From a virus, in the IMG/VR virus record IMGVR_UViG_3300024255_002515, positions 1 through 21,384 of that record: 21,384 bases of DNA, one strand, 5' to 3'. Below are positions 3,094 through 21,384 of the stretch, piece after piece. The translations under genes were made by a program, and so were the position numbers. The notes beneath the pieces were generated by a model. It did not search any database. It worked only from the letters and a program-made list of their open reading frames with translations, and had not been told where the DNA came from. Numbering within the stretch: the stretch's first letter is position 1; each line of letters opens with the position of its first letter.

Positions 3094-3357
3094 ATGCCAA
3101 TAGCCGCCACAAAAAGTATGTCAATCGCAGGAGGCCCTGTTATGGAGGGAACTGAACGAGTCAAGATTGAAGGTATGGCCGCCGCCCGTGAAGGCGACCC
3201 TATACAAGCACATGGTAAGTCACCACACGCCAAAGTTACAATAGCAACAGGCTCTGATAAAGTCACAATAGACGGCAAGCCGGCGGCAAGAGCAGGTGAT
3301 CCTGCTACATGCGGCCATGAACTAACAGGTGGAGCCGTCAGAGTTAATATTGGATGA
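3094..3357 (+). CDS. PAAR-domain spike-tip protein
   Basis: An 87-residue protein in which nearly the whole length is a PAAR-type sharpening domain: an N-terminal MPIAATKSMSIAGGP, a Gly-rich repeat pattern with EGDPIQAHG and ARAGDPATCGHE, and conserved His/Cys residues (HGK..H, CGHE) that in this family bind a metal at the cone tip. In T4-like phages the equivalent (gp5.4) caps the central baseplate spike that pierces the host envelope. It has a leaderless-type late promoter, as expected for a structural gene. Its stop overlaps the next start (ATGA at 3354-3357), coupling it to a PP-loop enzyme and a subtilisin. Confidence 0.9.
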   Translation: MPIAATKSMSIAGGPVMEGTERVKIEGMAAAREGDPIQAHGKSPHAKVTIATGSDKVTIDGKPAARAGDPATCGHELTGGAVRVNIG

Positions 3358-4541
3358 TTCCAACAGCCACAGTAGGCATAACTAAAGAATCAAAGTTATA
3401 CTCTACTCCAATTACACAAGACCTAGAAATTAAAAATGCGTATGACTTTCGTGGACAATTAATTTCTCAATTTAGACAAAATCCTTTTGGTGAACGACTG
3501 TCGCATCTAACAGCAGATATTTCGCTACCATATACAACTACAACTATACCCACTAATCCCAACATCGAAAACAATGTAGTAGACTATGTCGAGTTACATC
3601 TACGAGAATATTTACAAGAAAACAATTATAATTTATTTCTAAGTGGTGGTGTTGATAGCGAAAATATTGCCAACATACTAATAAAAGGTAATATCAGATT
3701 CACACCTATAATTGTAACATACACACATCAAGATAAAGTGCTAAATGATTATGATATAAAATACGCATTTGACTATTGTAAGAAACAAAACATAACCCCG
3801 ACTATAATTGATATTGATATAATAGATTTTTTTAATTCAGGTAAGTGTATGAAATATGCTCGTGAATATCAATGTGTAAGTCCACAATTTTCGCCTATTT
3901 TGTATGCGTTTGATCAGATTGACGGCAACATATTATACTCTGGACATCAAAAAATATTTACAAACTTATTGTATAATGCTAGGAAATACTCCACAGACCT
4001 AGAATCTGTTTTAAGTGATTTTAGTTATAATAACGACTTGCTTAACGATATAGATTTTATGACAAAGCCTACGTCATTATGGGTATTTGATAAAGTGTTA
4101 AATAAACGCAACGATAACTCTATCTCAGATTTTTATAATTGTACTACTGACATGGCGTTAACATTTACTAATAATATGATTAATCATACAGCAGTCACAT
4201 TCACAGAATTATTGGATTATAATGTGTGGCAATACCGAGACGGTATAATGGCACATGGCTTTAACCAAGTAGATAATCCTAAAAACTTTAGATCATTTAA
4301 AAAAGATAAATACAACTTTAAAGTAAATCACATATACACACCAAACAACTTGTTCGCTTTACCTAGAACTAAATATACTGGCTTTGAGGGTATCAAAAAG
4401 TTCTATTCAGATAAATACTTAGGTAAAGACATGTTACTCCAAGAGTTTGACAAGTATTTTAGAGAAACAATGTCCCGATCGGTTACAGTTTTTGACAATG
4501 AAGCAAACCAGATCGTAAATTATATATTGAAGGAAGAATAA
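3354..4541 (+). CDS. PP-loop ATP-pyrophosphatase family protein (asparagine synthase C-domain-like)
   Basis: A 395-residue protein with a clean PP-loop SGGVDS at residues 97-102, preceded by a beta strand (NYNLFL). This signature marks enzymes that adenylate a substrate with ATP and release pyrophosphate (asparagine synthase, NAD synthase, GMP synthase, tRNA thiolation enzymes). A Rossmann-like pattern follows: FTPIIVTY strand, DYDIKYAFDYCKK helix, TIIDIDI strand, and a later LYSGHQKIF. No N-terminal glutaminase domain with a catalytic Cys2 is visible, so it is not a full asparagine synthetase. Substrate unknown. It is coupled by ATGA overlap to the PAAR gene and followed 1 nt after its stop by the protease gene. 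Confidence 0.75.
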   Translation: MIPTATVGITKESKLYSTPITQDLEIKNAYDFRGQLISQFRQNPFGERLSHLTADISLPYTTTTIPTNPNIENNVVDYVELHLREYLQENNYNLFLSGGVDSENIANILIKGNIRFTPIIVTYTHQDKVLNDYDIKYAFDYCKKQNITPTIIDIDIIDFFNSGKCMKYAREYQCVSPQFSPILYAFDQIDGNILYSGHQKIFTNLLYNARKYSTDLESVLSDFSYNNDLLNDIDFMTKPTSLWVFDKVLNKRNDNSISDFYNCTTDMALTFTNNMINHTAVTFTELLDYNVWQYRDGIMAHGFNQVDNPKNFRSFKKDKYNFKVNHIYTPNNLFALPRTKYTGFEGIKKFYSDKYLGKDMLLQEFDKYFRETMSRSVTVFDNEANQIVNYILKEE

Positions 4542-4542
4542 T

Positions 4543-6237
4543 ATGGCAGACAAAAACTATTTTGTATCAATGAAAAATCACATAATCGATGACGATTTTG
4601 CAACCGCTGACTTTGACCCAGTAATACAAAAACAACAACTAGTAGACGCAGGCGCGACTATTGTTAATACGTTTCCGCACATTGATGCTGGATTTTACGA
4701 ATTAACTATAGACGATGCTAGTATCGGTTCTATCACCGGCATAGCAAATGTAGTAGCAACAGAATTAGTAGGAGCAGGTTCAAATGTATCAACTCTTGCT
4801 ATCAGCGAAAGCACAACTGAATGGCATAAACAACGAGTAGTTACAAGAAATCTTCCTCTTAGAACAACATTCGATCCTGTCTTTGAAGGTGATAACGCAA
4901 CAGTATATGTAGTAGATAGTGGATGTGATGTAGATCACCCAGAATTTGCAAATGCTATAGTACAAAGAGTTCATAATCCAGAACATGGGTCTTTTAACGA
5001 CTACATGGCCGCTGGCAATGATACAACATTATTTACTGTAGCAGATGATCACGGACACGGAACAGCAATGGCAAGTTTAGTAGTAGGCGAAACACTAGGT
5101 GTTGCCAGACATGCCAAACTTGGTGTAGCAAAAGTTAGTGGCGCAGACGGATCTGCTGATATTTCAGCAGTAGCACACGGCTTAAACTCAATTATGACTC
5201 ACAGAAATCAGAATTCAGCATTAGACACTAATGGTACTTACAGAACAGCAGTTATAGTTATGGCATTTACTTTTCCTAAATCAGAAGCACTAGATAGACT
5301 AGTTACTTACATGTGGAAAAGACGTTTTACAATAGTTGCCGCGGCAGGTAATGCCGGTGGCGATGTTGATAATTTTTCACCAGGTGGACTTAACAGTATA
5401 TTAACAGTAGGGGCAAGTGATGCCTCAGATAACGTTCCAACTTTCTCAAATGATGCTGGTACAGTAGTTGAACAAGGCACAGGCTTACAAACAAATGGTG
5501 GTGAAGAAGTTGATGTATTTGCTCCAGGTGTTGGAGTTAATGTAGCAACAATCCACAATAGAAACGAAGGTGGCGGATATGATGGCGTAGCAGAAGCCAA
5601 TCTTGTAGTAAGTGCGTCAGGTACTAGTTGTTCAACAGCAATAGTAGGCGGTATTGCCGCTGTAGCAATTCAAAGAAATGAAGGACATAGATCAAATGAA
5701 GTTAAAGACTTTGTAATATCACAATCACTAACAGGTATGTTATTCCAGGATCCAACTTTATATAGCACAACTCCAAATAACATTGTTTATTTAGAAAACG
5801 AATATTACGCAACAGTTTGGAATACTAACGCAGGCTCATTAGGCGAAACACTAATCAGTGGCGCAGGTTCAGTTAATCTTTCTTTAGATGTAGCAAATAC
5901 AGTTACAGGCATTGCTAGTTCAGACTTTGCCGCTTTACCACCAGCATTACAAATTACAGGTAATGCCAGTGATGGTTGGGCATTAACTGCCAATACAAGT
6001 GTAACAGCAACCATAACAGAAGATAAGACATATAACTTTATTTTAACAGCAACCAAGAGCGATAACACTGAATATAACAGACACTTTAGTTATAGTTTCT
6101 TTACAGGATCTGAAATTACAGACGATATGAGAGACGATGCCAAAGAGTCGTACTTTGTTGTAGACGGTAGTGATACAGAAGAAATTGATTATGTTAAAGG
6201 AATGCAAGCCGCATTTGGTGGTTTCCAATTAAAGTAA
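4543..6237 (+). CDS. Subtilisin-like serine protease (peptidase S8) with C-terminal Ig-like region
   Basis: A 564-residue protein. Residues 1-85 look like a propeptide or inhibitor-type domain with no obvious signal peptide. The catalytic domain spans roughly residues 95-400 with a complete triad: Asp in VVDSGCDVDHP (D125), His in DDHGHGTAMAS (H172), oxyanion Asn in AAAGN (N270), and the nucleophile in SASGTSCSTA (S362). The usual GTSMAxP has become GTSCSTA, so the Met and Pro are replaced. Residues from about 455 (PPALQITGN, then alternating short strands) to 540 resemble an Ig or cadherin-like beta sandwich. The Shine-Dalgarno GGAAG lies in the end of the previous gene. Possible roles are virion maturation, host-surface digestion or an injected effector. 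Its place behind PAAR suggests a tail association, but this is inference. Confidence 0.93.
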   Translation: MADKNYFVSMKNHIIDDDFATADFDPVIQKQQLVDAGATIVNTFPHIDAGFYELTIDDASIGSITGIANVVATELVGAGSNVSTLAISESTTEWHKQRVVTRNLPLRTTFDPVFEGDNATVYVVDSGCDVDHPEFANAIVQRVHNPEHGSFNDYMAAGNDTTLFTVADDHGHGTAMASLVVGETLGVARHAKLGVAKVSGADGSADISAVAHGLNSIMTHRNQNSALDTNGTYRTAVIVMAFTFPKSEALDRLVTYMWKRRFTIVAAAGNAGGDVDNFSPGGLNSILTVGASDASDNVPTFSNDAGTVVEQGTGLQTNGGEEVDVFAPGVGVNVATIHNRNEGGGYDGVAEANLVVSASGTSCSTAIVGGIAAVAIQRNEGHRSNEVKDFVISQSLTGMLFQDPTLYSTTPNNIVYLENEYYATVWNTNAGSLGETLISGAGSVNLSLDVANTVTGIASSDFAALPPALQITGNASDGWALTANTSVTATITEDKTYNFILTATKSDNTEYNRHFSYSFFTGSEITDDMRDDAKESYFVVDGSDTEEIDYVKGMQAAFGGFQLK

Positions 6238-13071: not shown

Positions 13072-13628
13072 TAGTATTTGATAACTTTTACGACAACGTA
13101 GATCAAGTACGAGAATACGCATTAGATCAAGAATATGTCACAGAGGGTAACTACCCAGGATACAGAACAGGTCCTGAAAACGATAGCCAACATGCGTATC
13201 TAAAATCATTCTTTGAAAGCATAATGAATTATAAAATTACATATTGGCCAAAAGAATATAATACAGCATATCAAATAACAACAAACGAGTCAAGTACCTG
13301 GATACACCATGATGAAACTATGTGGGCGGCAGTACTGTACTTAACACCTGATGCTCCTGTAGAATCAGGTACTGCTATATACAGACATAAACCAACAGGA
13401 ATATATCAATGGGACGGCATTGCTAATTCGCCTAGTGATTTTAACAATGCAGATTTTCTTGGTGACGACAATATGGATCAATGGGAACAAATAAATTTTG
13501 TTGGCAATGTGTACAATAGGCTTGTAATATACAAGGGCAGTATGTATCACAGAAGTGTACTTCCTGGTTTTGGTACTGATAAATATAACGGAAGGTTATT
13601 TCAAACTTTCTTTTTTGACACAGAGTAA
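13056..13628 (+). CDS. DUF6445-like Fe(II)/2-oxoglutarate-type oxygenase
   Basis: A 190-residue protein starting with the typical VFDNFYDNVDQVREYAL opening. The double-stranded beta-helix core carries the iron triad: H84 and D86 in WIHHDETMWAAVLYLTP, and a distal His in YKGSMYHRSVLPGFG (H165), with an Arg (R180 in GRLFQTFFF) suited to binding the 2-oxoglutarate carboxylate. The layout matches DUF6445 as I remember it. Its substrate is unknown. It starts inside the end of the GH6-like gene (16-nt overlap) and is followed 2 nt after its stop by a second oxygenase. Confidence 0.75.
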   Translation: MDKNLIVFDNFYDNVDQVREYALDQEYVTEGNYPGYRTGPENDSQHAYLKSFFESIMNYKITYWPKEYNTAYQITTNESSTWIHHDETMWAAVLYLTPDAPVESGTAIYRHKPTGIYQWDGIANSPSDFNNADFLGDDNMDQWEQINFVGNVYNRLVIYKGSMYHRSVLPGFGTDKYNGRLFQTFFFDTE

Positions 13629-13630
13629 TT

Positions 13631-14311
13631 ATGGATAGTTATTGGGAATGGAACAAAGAAAACTTCGACTGGCATTACGATCCTGCTAATAAAACACCTG
13701 ACGTACAATATGTAGGTAAGTTTGTATCTGATCCGGAATCGTTGCTTAGAGACGGTGTAAGGGCGTGCAAAGACGCCTTAAGCGACAACGATAAGTATGA
13801 CGAAGTAAGTATTAAGGGCAAGCCTTATAACAAAGAAGCCGCTGAAATAATGGAAGGTTATCACAATGATCTTACTCGCGCCGGTTACACCTCGCACAAT
13901 ACAGGTGGCAGACAATCCAGAGAGAATCTACATCATGTAATGCACTTAATGGCCGAACGAAGTGGATTATGGAATCCGCAAATAATGTTTTTAGAACAAC
14001 CTCCCGGAAAATTTGTTCCGTGGCACAGAGACAGTTATAATAACTATAGAAGAAACTTTGCTAAAGTAGGTGACGACACTGAAGTAATACGTTACTTAGT
14101 ACAACTCAATGATTGGCAGTGGGGACATTATGTTAGTGTAGGCAATGATGTTATACATCAATACGAATTAGGCGATATACATTGTTGGAAAGAAGGCATA
14201 TATCATGCCACAGGTAACGCAGGGTTATGGCCTAGATACTGCTTAACTATAACAGGTGTAGTAACAGATTCATCATTACACTTACAACAACCAAAAGAAT
14301 TTAAAATTTAA
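13631..14311 (+). CDS. Second Fe(II)/2-oxoglutarate-type oxygenase-like protein
   Basis: A 226-residue protein. The iron-binding pattern is H132 and D134 in KFVPWHRDSYNNYRR, with the distal His in WKEGIYHATGNAG (H192) and a following Arg (R202 in PRYCLTI). The strands between (IRYLVQLNDW, GHYVSVGNDVIHQYELGDIHCW) fit a cupin or jelly-roll core. It most resembles the aspartyl hydroxylase-like or phage oxygenase families. The protein substrate is unknown. It lies 2 nt after the DUF6445-like gene and 1 nt before the ferredoxin gene (TAATATG junction), so it is part of the same translation-coupled operon. Confidence 0.7.
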   Translation: MDSYWEWNKENFDWHYDPANKTPDVQYVGKFVSDPESLLRDGVRACKDALSDNDKYDEVSIKGKPYNKEAAEIMEGYHNDLTRAGYTSHNTGGRQSRENLHHVMHLMAERSGLWNPQIMFLEQPPGKFVPWHRDSYNNYRRNFAKVGDDTEVIRYLVQLNDWQWGHYVSVGNDVIHQYELGDIHCWKEGIYHATGNAGLWPRYCLTITGVVTDSSLHLQQPKEFKI

Positions 14312-14662: not shown

Positions 14663-16660
14663 ATGAACGCAAGTGACGTAATAGTAATATACCCAGGAAG
14701 ATTTCATCCTTTTCATAAAGGACACAAAGGTGTCTTTGATTTACTAAACAGTAAATTTAAAAATGTCTTCATTGCTACATCGGACAAAGTAGAAGCGGGA
14801 AAATCACCATTTAGTTTTGATGAAAAGGTCAAAATTATGAATTTAACTGGTGTAGAGCAAAGCAATATTCTAAAAGTAAAACAAACATATAACGGCGAAG
14901 AATACAAAAGCCGATTTAATAACAACTATGGCTTGATATTTGCTGTTAGTGAAAAGGATATGTCAGATGATCCGCGTTTTAACTTTCCATCAAGTGGCAT
15001 GAGTTTAAAGAAAAACGGTGAGCCAGCATACTTACAAAAGTTTACAAGTATGGATAAGGTTGATAATATGGAACAGCATGGATACATAATGACTGTGCCT
15101 ACAACTTCATTTAAAGTTAATGGCCATGACGTAAATAGTGCGTCGCAGATACGATCTTTGCTAGGAACGGAAAATATAGACGATGCAAAGCAGGCATTTG
15201 TCGATTTATATGATAAATATAATGAAACAGTATTCAATATGATACGAAACAAATTAGGTGAGAAGACAATGGAAAATATAGATTTAAACGAACTAAGAAG
15301 AATGGCAGGACTAGAGGAACGCGACATCGATCAAGATGACGATTACTCAGAGGTTCCTGGTTATAAGGAAAAGCCAATGTTCGATCAACTTGGTAAAATA
15401 ATTGACAGTTACGATATGTCACAAGAAGGTGATGATATTAAGAATCCATTGTCCACAGTTAAAACTGACGACGGCGAAGAAATAGAAGTTAATGTTGGTG
15501 AAGCAAGAGCACTTAAAGATATGATGGAAATGCTATCCAGTGCTAGAATGGGACAAGATAAGTCAGCAAGAGAAAAGTTTTTAGATACCATACAAAAATC
15601 AGAAGGTTTACATGGTATGTTAGAGTTTGCTAGATCAAAAGGCCTAGTAAAAGAAGAATACACAGGCGAAGGCAACGCATTTAGCGGTGCTCAAGTAGGT
15701 AAAAAGAAAGGTGATAAGTTTACAGTAGGTGGTAAAACATTTACAAAAGAAGAAGAAATTGAAGAATTAAATTTAGACGATATTAGAGCAGACTATGGCA
15801 TCAACGAAGGCAGATTAAAAGATATTATTATAGATGCTATGCAAATGACTAAAGAAGAATTTGACATGGAATACAAAGGCGAATGGGATTACGACGAAAT
15901 TAACGCAGACTTTGGTGAAAACAGCAATGATCAAGAACCAGCAGAAATTGGCGAAGGCCCAGACTATGATGCGTCAGATATCCACAGAGGCGATGCTATT
16001 ACTTGTAAGCCATGTGGAGGCAAAGGTTGCGATCATTGTGACCAAAAAGGTGTTCATCCTAAAGAAGAAAGTTTTGATCCACAAGCAGAACAAGGTCGTG
16101 AAGAAGAAGCACACGAAAAACTAATGACTGCTTTACAAACTGGTGGCGAAGAAGCATACGCAAAAGCATGTGGTTTATCCATGGATGAACTTGATGACGA
16201 AATGAGTGAGATTAGCAGAGACTTAAACTTACACATGGACGACGACAGAGATGAAATTATTCATAGACATGCTGAAGATACATGTGATAATGCCGATTAC
16301 AAAGACCATGGCGAACCAGCAGTAGACGAAGACTTACAAAGAATGCGTCATTTAGCCGGTATCGATAATATAACAGAAGTTGACTGGAATTGGAAATCCG
16401 GCAGTTACGACGAAGAAGCAGGATACGATACTAATTATAGTTTATGGCGAGATGAAGCAATGAGAGATAGATCAGACTATAAAGTTGAGCCTTTCAAATC
16501 CGAAGAAGAAATGATTAAATCATTTGAAGCCAGTATGGAAAGCATGGGTATTGATATTTTCAAACAAAAACAAATAAGTCTAGCAAAGAAACAAGAGCAA
16601 GAGAAAGAAGAAAGAGAAAGATATTCTTCTAAGCCAGAACAAACAGCAATGGACTTTTAA
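14663..16660 (+). CDS. Nucleotidyltransferase domain fused to a long acidic, zinc-knuckle-containing region
   Basis: A 665-residue two-part protein. Residues 1-200 form a cytidylyltransferase-like (NMNAT/PPAT superfamily) domain: VIVIYPGRFHPFHKGHKGVF with the HxGH signature H18-H21, and SASQIRSLLG (159-168), the counterpart of the ISSTxxR nucleotide-binding motif. Such enzymes transfer AMP or CMP to phosphate-containing substrates such as NMN. Residues 203-665 are acidic, low-complexity, Glu/Asp/Lys-rich and mostly helical. They contain LNELRRMAGLEE (209-219), a four-Cys knuckle CKPCGGKGCDHC (448-459) like DnaJ zinc centres, and LQRMRHLAGI (558-567). The C-terminus is a charged coiled-coil-like stretch (KKQEQEKEERERY). 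An internal ATG at 15269 with a strong ribosome binding site may produce the C-terminal part alone. Confidence 0.85.
   Translation: MNASDVIVIYPGRFHPFHKGHKGVFDLLNSKFKNVFIATSDKVEAGKSPFSFDEKVKIMNLTGVEQSNILKVKQTYNGEEYKSRFNNNYGLIFAVSEKDMSDDPRFNFPSSGMSLKKNGEPAYLQKFTSMDKVDNMEQHGYIMTVPTTSFKVNGHDVNSASQIRSLLGTENIDDAKQAFVDLYDKYNETVFNMIRNKLGEKTMENIDLNELRRMAGLEERDIDQDDDYSEVPGYKEKPMFDQLGKIIDSYDMSQEGDDIKNPLSTVKTDDGEEIEVNVGEARALKDMMEMLSSARMGQDKSAREKFLDTIQKSEGLHGMLEFARSKGLVKEEYTGEGNAFSGAQVGKKKGDKFTVGGKTFTKEEEIEELNLDDIRADYGINEGRLKDIIIDAMQMTKEEFDMEYKGEWDYDEINADFGENSNDQEPAEIGEGPDYDASDIHRGDAITCKPCGGKGCDHCDQKGVHPKEESFDPQAEQGREEEAHEKLMTALQTGGEEAYAKACGLSMDELDDEMSEISRDLNLHMDDDRDEIIHRHAEDTCDNADYKDHGEPAVDEDLQRMRHLAGIDNITEVDWNWKSGSYDEEAGYDTNYSLWRDEAMRDRSDYKVEPFKSEEEMIKSFEASMESMGIDIFKQKQISLAKKQEQEKEERERYSSKPEQTAMDF
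15256..15271 (+). promoter_or_regulatory. Internal ribosome binding site and ATG within the fusion gene
   Basis: AGGTGA (15256-15261) matches the core of the anti-Shine-Dalgarno complement and lies 7 nt before an in-frame ATG (15269-15271). This is exactly where the nucleotidyltransferase domain ends and the MENIDLNELRRMAGL segment begins. It could yield a separate 463-residue C-terminal product. Confidence 0.45.
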
Positions 16661-16661
16661 T

Positions 16662-17066
16662 ATGAGTAAAGTAAGCAAAGAAGATTTAAAACAATTACAA
16701 AAATTAGCAGGCATATATACAGACGTGCTAAATGAAAAGGATGCCGGAAGTGCTGAAAAACTAGCAGTAGGGCATGTAGATAACGAGCGTGATATGATTA
16801 GAAGACAGTTATATCAAATGGGAACATATACAGTCGAATTGGCTAAAATGTTAAAAGAATTGCCAGACTCAGATTTCCCTAATTGGTGGCAAGCAAAGAT
16901 TACAAAAGCAGGAGCATACATAAGCGATGCTAAACATTACTTGGAAAATACTCAAGCAGTTCCACCAGGAGATGATATGACCAAAGACGGTTCGCAAGGA
17001 ACTGTTGGTGTTGTAGATCCTGATTTTGAAAGAGACGACGTACAAGATCCATCCGGCGTAAGTTAA
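16662..17066 (+). CDS. Hypothetical 134-aa protein with N-terminal LAG motif
   Basis: Begins MSKVSKEDLKQLQKLAGIYTDVL, carrying the same L-x-x-L-x-x-LAG(I/L) signature found in the fusion protein upstream and in the large minus-strand protein. The centre is a helical domain (DNERDMIRRQLYQMGTY, ELAKMLKELPDSDFPNWWQAK, AGAYISDAKHYLEN). The C-terminus is acidic and disordered. The gene starts 1 nt after the upstream stop (TAATATG) and so is co-translated with it. Function unknown; a virion or capsid-internal role is a guess based on the shared motif. Confidence 0.8.
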   Translation: MSKVSKEDLKQLQKLAGIYTDVLNEKDAGSAEKLAVGHVDNERDMIRRQLYQMGTYTVELAKMLKELPDSDFPNWWQAKITKAGAYISDAKHYLENTQAVPPGDDMTKDGSQGTVGVVDPDFERDDVQDPSGVS

Positions 17067-18968: not shown

Positions 18969-21384
18969 CTACCAGGCGCGGCAACTCCAGTAACGTGCCT
19001 TTGTACGTGGTCCTGGATTATCACAATTATGTCTTGCTCTAAAACTCTTACGTCTTGCTGGATTAGACTTTTTAATTTTCATAGTCTTTTGTCCGGCTTT
19101 TTTAGCACTACTGCCACCGTGTCCAAAGTTTACTTTTTTAACATTTCCTGTCTTAGGATCTTTTACATAAACTTTAAACTTCTTAACATCGCCTCTAGTT
19201 GGTTTGCCCAACTTGACTTTGCGTCCTTGGTATTCTGCTTCTTCAATTGATTCAAAGTCAAACTCTGATTGTCTAGGTGTTCCTGGTGTTAACTCTAACT
19301 CTTTCTGTAAAGGCGGCTTCCTATTAAGTATCTCACCGTCTGTACCGTAACCTGTCGCTTTTTCAAAATTTATTTTTGCTATTGCTATTTTTTGTAAATT
19401 TTTAGGATCTTTTAAATCCAAAGTAAACGTACAGTTATTATCTTTACACCAGTTTATAAACTTGCCTGATGTAGCAAAACCGTTCTTGATAATATCTTGA
19501 ACTGCTTTTTTAACTTGGTCTGGTTTAGCATACATTTCAATATCGCCTTCATCTAAACCTGCTAGATGTCTCATTCTTTCAATTTCTTCATATGCCTTTG
19601 TTCCGCCAAAGTATCCGTCATCTTTACCTTCGCCGTCACATTTAGGACATTCCTTTTCTGGCTCATCTGGTATCCAACCATTGCCATTACAGTCTGGACA
19701 ATCGTCGTCTATGGCTTTAGGGTTTCTATTTTTAAAAACTTTATCAAACGCATCCTGATCAAAAGATGCTTCTTCTATATCTTCGTTCTTTTTACAAGAA
19801 CCTTTTTCGCCTGCTGATTTACCAGGGACTTTACTATAACCTTTCCAGCACTTGTTGTATATTTTGCTGTTACCGTGCTTTTCGCCTTCGTCTACTTCTT
19901 CTGTTTCTTCGAATAAACTATCAGCAGTTTCGTCCCAAGCAATTAACACATTTTCACCTACAACATGTATAACAGGAGCAATGACTCCTTCGCCCATGCC
20001 TGTTTCGATCATTAGTTCGTCACCTGCTTGTATACTTTCAGTCTTAACATAATCTTTAAAATCCTGTAAGTATATTTGGTATCGTTGACTGATAATTCTT
20101 TCCTTGGGTGGGTTTTTATCTGTTTGCATTGTCCACACATGATATTCTTCGCCACTTAGTGGGCCACCTTGATTATTAGTAGGAAACAATCCTACTGCTG
20201 TTTTTACTGTTTTCATTTCATTTACGTCCTCGGCATGCATTGCCGCCATATGTTTTTTATATTTTGCTGAACCTTTTTTATGTGGTGACTTGCCTTCGCT
20301 AGTTAACCCTGCTTTTTTCATTCCTTTAGCAACTAAACTGGCTCTTTGTGCTCTGCCCATACTAGGGTATTCATTTTTAACATACTCTAAAGCATCTCTA
20401 GGATCTTGGCCACTCTTCTTCAATTGCTTGGCTGTACTAGCCGCAAAGTCTATAACTGCTTCATCACCTGGGTAGTTTGCTTTGGCTTGTTGTCTTTGTG
20501 CTTGACGTTCATCATGATCTTTAATTTCTTTCCAACTTACATCGCCACCATCGTATGTCAAAATACCATCGTCACAACCGTAGTTGCCAAACCCATTACA
20601 GTCTTCGTCATCTTCTACATTAGGACACTCTGGGCAACTGCCATCTTTGACATATTCTGCTTCAACACTACTGCTTTGTTCTAACGCATCTTGTAAATCA
20701 TTGTATGCCTGCTTTCTTGCTTCAGCATCGTAAAAATTATCTGGCTGACCAATCATTCCTTCATCTTGAGGACCGTCTGGATCGATAAACGGTTCATTAC
20801 TTGTATGGTGATGACCATCTGGATTCTTTACTTCTTTAACTAGTTCATCATCGTATTCTTCAGGTTCGTCGCCTTCGCTACGAATATAATCTACTAGAAC
20901 TTTGCCGCCATATGCTACAGCAAGTACACCTGCTATAGGTAAACCGTATTTTACTAACATATCAGCAATCTTCTTTAGTGTTTCCATATCAAATAGGTCA
21001 CCAAATAAGTCTGACAAAAATTGTATTGCTTCTTCAATTTTATCAAATACTTGATCGACTAAATATGAAACACCGCCTACAACAACTGCTCCGCCTACTG
21101 CTGGGCCAACTGCTTTCTTACCAATTTCTTTGCCTACCTTACCTACTACTGGTGCCACCTTTTTTGCGCCACCAACTGCTTTCTTGCCAATTTCTTTTGC
21201 TACTTTACCAGCCGCAGGTCCCACAGTTTTAGTACTGTTAGTCACAGCCTTTTTAACTGCTTTCTTGACTGCTTCGCCGCCTACTTTGCCTACTACTGCT
21301 TTTTTAATAGCATCTTTGGTAGCATGTCTAAGTATAATAGGGCCTAATAACCTTAAACCGGTTAATATTACTGGAATGGCAGGT
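18969..21384 (-). CDS. Large mosaic protein of short repeated modules (5' end beyond window)
   Basis: At least 805 residues; the frame is open to the right edge, and a GTG at 21245 is probably not the true start. From N to C: Gly/Ala/Lys-rich amphipathic repeats (GKVAKEIGKKAVG, then GKVGKEIGKKAVG, 21105-21233); a hydrophobic patch YGLPIAGVLAVAYGG; an acidic linker; a Cys cluster CPECPN..CNGFGNYGC (about 20566-20643); HKKGSAKYKKHMAAMHAE (about 20230-20290); CWKGYSKVPGKSAGEKGSCKK (about 19797-19855); a DnaJ-like CPDCNGNG...CPKCDGEG pair (about 19625-19700); RMRHLAGL (19554-19577); and a basic C-terminus with RARHNC...YWSCRAW. Several modules look like those scattered through marine T4-like phage proteins. 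A virion-internal or capsid-core role is plausible but unproven. Confidence 0.8.
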   Translation of the reverse strand, partial: PAIPVILTGLRLLGPIILRHATKDAIKKAVVGKVGGEAVKKAVKKAVTNSTKTVGPAAGKVAKEIGKKAVGGAKKVAPVVGKVGKEIGKKAVGPAVGGAVVVGGVSYLVDQVFDKIEEAIQFLSDLFGDLFDMETLKKIADMLVKYGLPIAGVLAVAYGGKVLVDYIRSEGDEPEEYDDELVKEVKNPDGHHHTSNEPFIDPDGPQDEGMIGQPDNFYDAEARKQAYNDLQDALEQSSSVEAEYVKDGSCPECPNVEDDEDCNGFGNYGCDDGILTYDGGDVSWKEIKDHDERQAQRQQAKANYPGDEAVIDFAASTAKQLKKSGQDPRDALEYVKNEYPSMGRAQRASLVAKGMKKAGLTSEGKSPHKKGSAKYKKHMAAMHAEDVNEMKTVKTAVGLFPTNNQGGPLSGEEYHVWTMQTDKNPPKERIISQRYQIYLQDFKDYVKTESIQAGDELMIETGMGEGVIAPVIHVVGENVLIAWDETADSLFEETEEVDEGEKHGNSKIYNKCWKGYSKVPGKSAGEKGSCKKNEDIEEASFDQDAFDKVFKNRNPKAIDDDCPDCNGNGWIPDEPEKECPKCDGEGKDDGYFGGTKAYEEIERMRHLAGLDEGDIEMYAKPDQVKKAVQDIIKNGFATSGKFINWCKDNNCTFTLDLKDPKNLQKIAIAKINFEKATGYGTDGEILNRKPPLQKELELTPGTPRQSEFDFESIEEAEYQGRKVKLGKPTRGDVKKFKVYVKDPKTGNVKKVNFGHGGSSAKKAGQKTMKIKKSNPARRKSFRARHNCDNPGPRTKARYWSCRAW

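Follow-up and report, generated by a model that had tools for sequence, protein, structure and literature searches.

We have analysed a 21,384-nucleotide stretch of viral DNA, the IMG/VR record IMGVR_UViG_3300024255_002515 (hereafter the window), and in particular the large gene at its right-hand end. This minus-strand frame (21383-18969) encodes 804 amino acids (P0001) and stays open up to its TAG stop at 18971-18969; its 5' end lies beyond the right edge. We consider it probable, from comparisons of sequence, that P0001 is an internal head protein of the T4 type, ejected by a marine T4-like phage, and that it is built as a polyprotein of exchangeable blocks.

The route that we propose runs as follows. 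An N-terminal capsid targeting sequence, known from the relatives, would draw the polyprotein into the assembling prohead. This recruitment would be aided by an internal LAG tag, a copy of the ~10 residues that close the gp22 scaffold of related phages, for which a binding partner is presumed. During head maturation a prohead protease of the gp21 type would cut after [L/I/V/M/F]-x-E ([LIVMF]xE below), thus stripping off targeting sequence and tag and freeing the blocks, foremost the C-terminal module with its net charge of +23. The basic blocks, once freed, would stay alongside the packaged DNA and travel with it into the next host. We infer the recruitment from the leader and the scaffold-type tag, and the cutting from the motif, the protease in related records and a contrast between isolates. 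That basic products stay with the DNA is suggested by their charge and by what T4 does, and ejection into the host is proposed by analogy with T4 and P1 (as described in PMC9026906 and PMC9024508). DNA binding by the +23 module is the simplest guess.

Conserved blocks in variable order

The 21.4 kb record belongs to a T4-like phage lineage. It has 28 open reading frames (ORFs), 24 of which have a match in the related record G026 with their order kept. Besides the polyprotein, 22 of the 23 matched ORFs are 54-95% identical to G026 (nrdA and nrdB 94-95%), the exception being the ORF at 3354-4541 with only 30%. The polyprotein itself shares 39% identity with G026 over 384 residues and 51% with G002 over 393. 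Jointly, G026, G002 and G027 hold relatives of gp4, gp15, gp17, gp18, gp44, uvsX, uvsW, gp41 and nrdA/B of the T4-like phage S-SM1, not every one of the three holding them all.

A reading of the window from its sequence alone had described the protein as a mosaic, and every block that it named is found in the frame (Table 1). Two copies of the KEIGKKAVG repeat (KVAKEIGKKAVG at residues 60-71 and KVGKEIGKKAVG at 82-93) are identical at 11 of 12 positions. Also present are the HKKGSAKYKKH block (HKKGSAKYKKHMAAMHAE, residues 368-385), CWKGY...GEKGSCKK, two Cys clusters, the LAG tag IERMRHLAGL at residues 601-610 and, within the last 30 residues, a basic RARHNC...YWSC tail. The acidic linkers are real as well (residues 171-205, net -10; 485-500, net -8). 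The net charge is +23 for the C-terminal module, +17 for residues 1-95, +5 for the CWKGY block, -18 for the MIG Cys block and -8 for the CxxCxGxG block. A putative role in nucleic-acid binding would be compatible with the +23 and +17.

A total of 73 related viral loci were found; in 66 the match is confined to residues 622-804, and in seven it extends from about residue 200 to the end. The MIG block, used as a query, finds 23 viral loci, seven of them on contigs from the set of 73. When the ORFs of the relatives are read, identical blocks appear in differing order and number. With 18 block patterns and 43 cluster representatives (17 multi-block, 26 with the C-terminal block only), 25 pairs of block types are seen in both orders, or 18 when the loose Cys pattern is left out, some of these pairs resting on one protein for one of the orders. 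Meanwhile the neighbouring genes stay conserved. This supports the exchange of cassettes that the sequence-only reading had suggested. Homologues conserved end to end as a single domain would speak against such a mosaic; the relatives shuffle their blocks, and the view of the polyprotein as one conserved domain is refuted.

A predicted cut ahead of the C-terminal module

An [LIVMF]xE motif ends 0-4 residues ahead of the C-terminal module in 33 of 42 distinct contexts, compared with 13.4% of random positions, and Glu stands immediately ahead of the module in these contexts. Among the 34 representatives having the first anchor, 27 carry the motif directly ahead.

The isolates provide a natural contrast, for which 12 of the 25 named phage records with the module were examined. 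In all four isolates with PF03420, the gp21 (S77 protease) family, the module is embedded, and the site ahead of it reads LEE|A, LTE|A, LDE|G or MME|S (the bar marks the predicted cut). In seven of the eight isolates without a recognised gp21 (one of these, the Aegir record, is just 18 kb) the module stands free, as a protein of 79-93 amino acids. The Fisher p of 0.01 for this contrast is optimistic owing to kinship within the groups. The predicted cut would thus give the form that other phages encode directly.

In the eighth isolate, Roseobacter phage CRP-6, gp55 (L294:835-1524) has the module ahead of a Peptidase_S78_2 (XkdF) domain (PF14550, expectation value (E) 7e-18). XkdF is a putative phage protease family, and a link of the module to head assembly outside the T4-like phages is possible.

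A further 38 module loci lie on genome contigs (L298-L335) from metagenome-assembled and single-cell genomes, two of them on the chromosome-scale records CP070664 and CP070815. A site lies directly ahead of the module in 15, the module is free in five and unanchored in 10; the remaining eight are taken up below.

The structure model of the module is of middling confidence, with a mean predicted local distance difference test (pLDDT) of 73 and a predicted template modelling score (pTM) of 0.60, and its first strand starts at the Glu before the cut. No solved structure matches it by sequence (best E 0.36) or by fold (E <= 0.001). In BFVD it matches 14 viral proteins at E <= 0.001, of which one bears the name ChaB and another XkdF. 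We do not identify the module with DUF5754, which matches weakly in six of 21 module sequences (best E 0.00023) and leaves the window's own module unmatched.

The LAG tag

In every one of the 17 records whose gp23 is intact, the ORF immediately upstream of gp23, taken blind to the tag, ends in LAG (15 distinct sequences). An 18th record, G013, was left out for a stop inside gp23; its gp22 is also LAG-ended. A scaffold-derived packing tag would be expected to resemble the scaffold end, and this likeness extends from the 17 gp22 ends to P0001 and two neighbouring ORFs. The gp22 proteins of T4, S-SM1, HTVC008M and C48C1 have different ends.

The tag pattern occurs three times in the window, with a shuffle mean of 0.0. 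Two records with gp22 in view have two (G007) and three (G012), one of each being gp22 itself, and where gp22 is out of view the counts are four (G002), three (G026) and two (G027); shuffle means are 0.0-0.2 throughout. Among the Kyanoviridae S-SM1 and C48C1 have none and HTVC008M has one, perhaps by chance.

Across the cluster representatives 20 of 58 tags are C-terminal and 38 lie elsewhere. These non-terminal tags are followed within 10 residues by [LIVMF]xE in 36 of 38 cases, when 27% would be expected from windows starting at a hydrophobic residue. The controls are much lower for xD (2/38) and xK (5/38), and polar-xE reaches 21/38 with 46% expected. When the tag contexts are collapsed by homology, the motif is in the majority for 11 of 13. 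Spacing and residues between tag and cut differ, as in LAGLDE|G, LAGLEPVME|S and LAGIYTDTLNE|K, which fits selection for a site better than the copying of a fixed word. We infer that the LAG tag is a removable packing tag derived from the scaffold.

The main alternative for the tag is that LAG is a generic short amphipathic helix, used for oligomerisation or folding, whose likeness to the gp22 end is convergent and has no bearing on packaging. A tag of just 10 residues and the single HTVC008M match would suit this idea. So would the Kyanoviridae, where the motif of the scaffold end was not found on the cargo proteins, implying that tag sharing is not general. We regard this alternative as fairly unlikely, as it does not account for the invariable LAG end upstream of gp23, for two to four tags in the window and each of the five related records above against none, none and one in the three Kyanoviridae, or for the cut motif that follows nearly every non-terminal tag.

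Leaders, protease and capsid genes in related phages

Relatives of the polyprotein with complete starts begin with leaders such as MKTLKEYIAES, MKTFKDYLAES, MKLFEFLTERP and MKFFELITEGK. In the T4 record ipII and ipIII start MKTYQEFIAEA and ipI starts MKTFKEFTS...TITEA. Of 41 cluster representatives whose start is complete, 38 have [LIVMF]xE in the first ~14 residues, compared with 233 of 997 other ORFs, a background that includes other leader-bearing proteins. The xD control is found in 4/41 and 182/997, and the stricter form MK..(F/Y/I)(I/L/F/V)xE in 23/41 and 58/997. The form of a capsid targeting sequence (10-19 residues ending in L/I-x-E) is seen in the relatives only, as the start of the window copy lies off the edge. 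A leader of like kind, MKKFSAFLNEA, begins T4-GC190, a cytidylyltransferase of S-SM1 that mass spectrometry detected in virions (as described in PMC3037559).

Other genes bear similar leaders. A second family of ~200 amino acids, MKTFAEYLTE|S...TYDYRIK, occurs in L007, L009, L014, L016, L022, L048 and others; YRIK is kept just past the predicted cut, as judged by eye, and the G026 copy (13155-13844) lies near gp17. In L283 (G012 109385-110145) two adjoining ORFs have leader-like starts, MRAREFIAE and MRAREFITE, that end alike.

The protease that the proposal calls for is present in related records. PF03420 is found in 14 of 25 chosen records with relatives, and in all nine of those over 170 kb. 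PF07068 (gp23) is found in 14 of 18 chosen records, the identical 14 that have PF03420. Closer to the window's own lineage, among records collected with the gp15 of G026, four of 18 chosen ones have both gp21 and gp23. One of these, G051, has a gp15 with 74% identity to the G026 protein and also a LAG-ended gp22 (end VVEINQIRKLAGLSN). In gp23 the motif lies ahead of VQPM in 14 of 14 distinct N-termini, by 37 residues in 12 and by 35 in two, where mature gp23 would be expected to begin.

These observations lend indirect support to proteolytic release of peptides in the capsid, which the sequence-only reading had raised beside cassette exchange: gp21-type motifs stand at several joints, the leaders resemble those of T4, and the module is free where no gp21 is recognised.

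Points against cleavage and the case for an uncut scaffold

We now turn to the joints other than those of the tag and module. These tests, like the one ahead of the module, followed a general test of similarity edges and the joints were picked after viewing the sequences, so the counts are not blind. The motif lies ahead of ERSIIRDA in 5/5 and of YKDVGxAD in 6/6 cases.

Several results weigh against the proposed reading. Ahead of other blocks the motif is less regular: HKKG 5/10, MIG 7/15, CW 4/11 (one a false match), DADQII 2/4, ESLQALA 1/3, RYGKDA/VMYA 0/3, AKALGD 0/8 and KADP 0/2. At the edges of local similarity it is only moderately enriched, in 60 of 241 starts (44.0 +- 5.8 expected) and 65 of 204 ends (37.3 +- 5.7), and polar-xE is raised there too (113 starts, 85.8 +- 7.6 expected; 92 ends, 73.1 +- 7.1). 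Polar-xE is also raised at the leaders (23/41 and 188/997). The 11 residues upstream of the tags are motif-rich as well (17/30), the motif recurs inside blocks of P0001 (residues 118, 460, 465 and 477), and eight of the 38 modules on genome contigs are embedded without a site directly ahead, one of these having a site one residue earlier. Searches of records with the MIG block gave no PF03420 (0/7 and 0/16) and no PF07068 (0/14). These records are fragments, the largest of 130 kb, and the gp21 of the window's lineage is therefore deduced from a related record. The window copy's own leader is out of sight, because the start lies off the window and the first 209 residues have no relative. Finally, neither virion proteomics nor cleavage experiments on the polyprotein or on any LAG-tagged protein turned up in our literature search, the nearest result being the detection of T4-GC190 in virions.

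Taken together, such points could be read as a protein that is packaged but stays uncut, with blocks on flexible acidic strings forming a DNA-condensing or core-filling scaffold, and with a joint motif that merely reflects acidic linkers. The Glu-rich linkers, the excess of polar-xE at edges and leaders, the several blocks that mostly lack a preceding motif and the eight modules embedded without a site all fit this account. We nevertheless think it unlikely. Acidity leaves the preference of xE over xD unexplained, both behind the tag (36 and 2 of 38) and at the start (38 and 4 of 41), as it does the free module in seven of eight isolates without a recognised gp21.

Another reading, as a membrane-active or tail protein whose Gly/Ala/Lys-rich N-terminal part inserts into membranes or measures the tail while the remainder is decoration, is very improbable. 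It has the repeats, a few hydrophobic stretches and a weak PHROG_991 tape-measure match in its favour. Hydropathy is marginal, however, rising above 1.4 in only six windows of 19 residues (maximum 1.73); the N-termini differ in those relatives that were read; and Gly/Ala/Lys repeats also occur in S-SM1_191, which adjoins the virion-detected cytidylyltransferase. The tape-measure match (E 0.0058) covers residues 36-153 only, in the part without relatives, and not the full length of a conserved protein. The suggestion of membrane insertion in the sequence-only reading is thus weak.

Comparison with known systems

The reading of P0001 as a processed internal head protein draws mostly on T4. As in T4 IPI, IPII, IPIII and Alt, the leaders of the relatives are of similar length and wording and end in [LI]xE; related phages share gp21 and gp23 with the identical motif, and the proteins have basic parts and diverge fast between phages. 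Each T4 internal protein is a single unit behind one leader, whereas here many swappable blocks share a chain with repeated motif sites. The polyprotein, known here from its sequence, also bears a second tag that resembles the scaffold end. T4 Alt is described as cut at its C-terminus as well (PMC9026906). The window copy is a probable rather than an established member of the T4-type internal proteins, since its start lies beyond the edge and its own gp21 is not in view.

The T4 core proteins gp22, gp67 and gp68, which gp21 cuts into several fragments, offer another parallel in having multiple gp21-type motifs per chain. According to PMC9026906 their fragments mostly exit the head; the conserved and separately mobile blocks of the polyprotein suggest products that are kept. 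LAG is the gp22 end in this phage group, unlike the gp22 of T4 and the Kyanoviridae.

Polyvalent proteins and P1 DarA/DarB are described in PMC5512222 (Iyer et al. 2017) and PMC9024508 as large, modular proteins that are packaged in the head or delivered along with the DNA of the phage. The polyprotein has smaller blocks, and the prohead protease would cut it in trans. Pfam recognises neither an enzyme nor an embedded peptidase domain in it, which sets it apart from polyvalent proteins in the sense of PMC5512222, with their several recognisable enzyme or other domain families and embedded peptidase. In engineered P22, C-terminal pieces of the scaffold (238-303 or 141-303) fused to cargo are described as loading capsids (PMC9962691). 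The LAG tag is natural, only ~10 residues long and has a predicted cut behind it; its role in packaging would be analogous.

In our judgement the chances are evenly divided on a broader proposal: that a group of marine T4-like phages runs a plug-and-cut cargo system, copying the C-terminal tag of the scaffold onto cargo, building a protease site in behind internal tags and stringing blocks into polyproteins. In the open-access literature, judged by titles and the openings of abstracts, we found no description of such a motif or tagged cargo system in marine phages. Many genes of marine T4-like phages are annotated as 'hypothetical'. If the proposal is true, leader, LAG tag and [LIVMF]xE sites would form a sequence rule that predicts injected proteins and their mature ends, and this rule is testable on the isolates HTVC008M, Melnitz and immuto. 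A natural scaffold end would then serve as a removable packing tag, the counterpart of which we have met only in the engineered P22 capsids of PMC9962691, and the polyprotein would be a route for loading many small proteins into a virion. A mini-protein put between two [LIVMF]xE sites would be packed, freed in the head and delivered to the host, and a phage could swap its injected mini-proteins through recombination while the head remains unchanged.

Features of the polyprotein and its neighbourhood

The features are collected in Table 1. The true N-terminus of the full gene, past the right edge, was not recovered, residues 1-209 having no relative in viral_contigs or among named phages. The middle part (about residues 209-715) has no relatives among named phages. 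Pfam gives just two matches to P0001, both to Cys regions and both below threshold. One is the DnaJ zinc finger PF00684, which we reject at 16.8 bits (curated cut-off 32.7) over 25 of 65 positions; the other, to Anti-TRAP, is likewise under the Pfam cut-off and rejected. The model of the MIG block (mean pLDDT 68, pTM 0.44) is confident in its helical half and not in its Cys half, and no PDB fold matches it at E <= 0.001.

Table 1. Positions of the open frame, its blocks and two tagged neighbouring genes in the window
Feature	Position	Strand	Remarks
Whole open frame P0001	18969..21383	-	804 amino acids; 5' end past right edge
Residues 1-95	21099..21383	-	Gly/Ala/Lys-rich; two KVxKEIGKKAVG repeats; net +17; no relatives found
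Residues 96-170	20874..21098	-	Hydrophobic/helical; marginal hydrophobic stretches
Residues 206-290	20514..20768	-	MIGxPD...CPEC...GNYGC block; Cys cluster; acidic; low-confidence model
Residues 291-365	20289..20513	-	Helical YPGDE...MGRAQRASL block; model confidence 88-95 from about residue 309
Residues 366-386	20226..20288	-	SPHKKGSAKYKKHMAAMHA block; precedes or follows MIG block in relatives
Residues 447-492	19908..20045	-	GDELMIET...HVV block
Residues 500-536	19776..19886	-	CWKGY...SCKK block, right behind predicted cut VDE|G (499|500)
Residues 556-592	19608..19718	-	Cys cluster; two CxxCxGxG pairs, DnaJ zinc-finger-like, under Pfam cut-off
Residues 601-612	19548..19583	-	LAG tag IERMRHLAGL, then immediately predicted cut LDE|G (612|613)
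Residues 613-715	19239..19547	-	NWCKxNNC region, common to L002/L105; ends in predicted cut IEE|A (715|716)
Residues 716-804	18972..19238	-	Basic C-terminal module AEYQG...SFRARHNC...YWSCRAW; net +23; PHROG_7595 match at 713-804
Cytidylyltransferase-like ORF	14663-16660	+	LAG tag at residues 558-567; LAG-like ELRRMAGLEE earlier
134-amino-acid ORF	16662..17066	+	N-terminal part: LAG tag LKQLQKLAGI, then YTDVLNE

The cytidylyltransferase-like ORF (PF01467, E 5.2e-6) is itself multi-block, with LAG tags and the Cys block CKPCGGKGCDHC. Elsewhere in the window, an ORF at 4543-6237 is protease-like (PHROG_3677 'protease', E 1.3e-33) and 55% identical in G026.

The related record G026 holds two further large ORFs. 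One of 2222 amino acids (39306-45974; L136-L137) starts MKLADLYEYNKG, falls in the same cluster and holds the short RYGDDAEAVMYATATKMAK block of other relatives. Another of 606 amino acids (45971-47791; L137:5971-7791) starts MRLYEVTKPGQ and contains a Cu/Zn superoxide dismutase domain (PF00080, E 6e-44) with further cassette-like stretches behind it, possibly a head-packed superoxide dismutase. Two repeat genes, L176:7820-10600 and L193:9340-12231, lie near a gp15 relative in T4-like phages; their repeats look like those of curli subunits.

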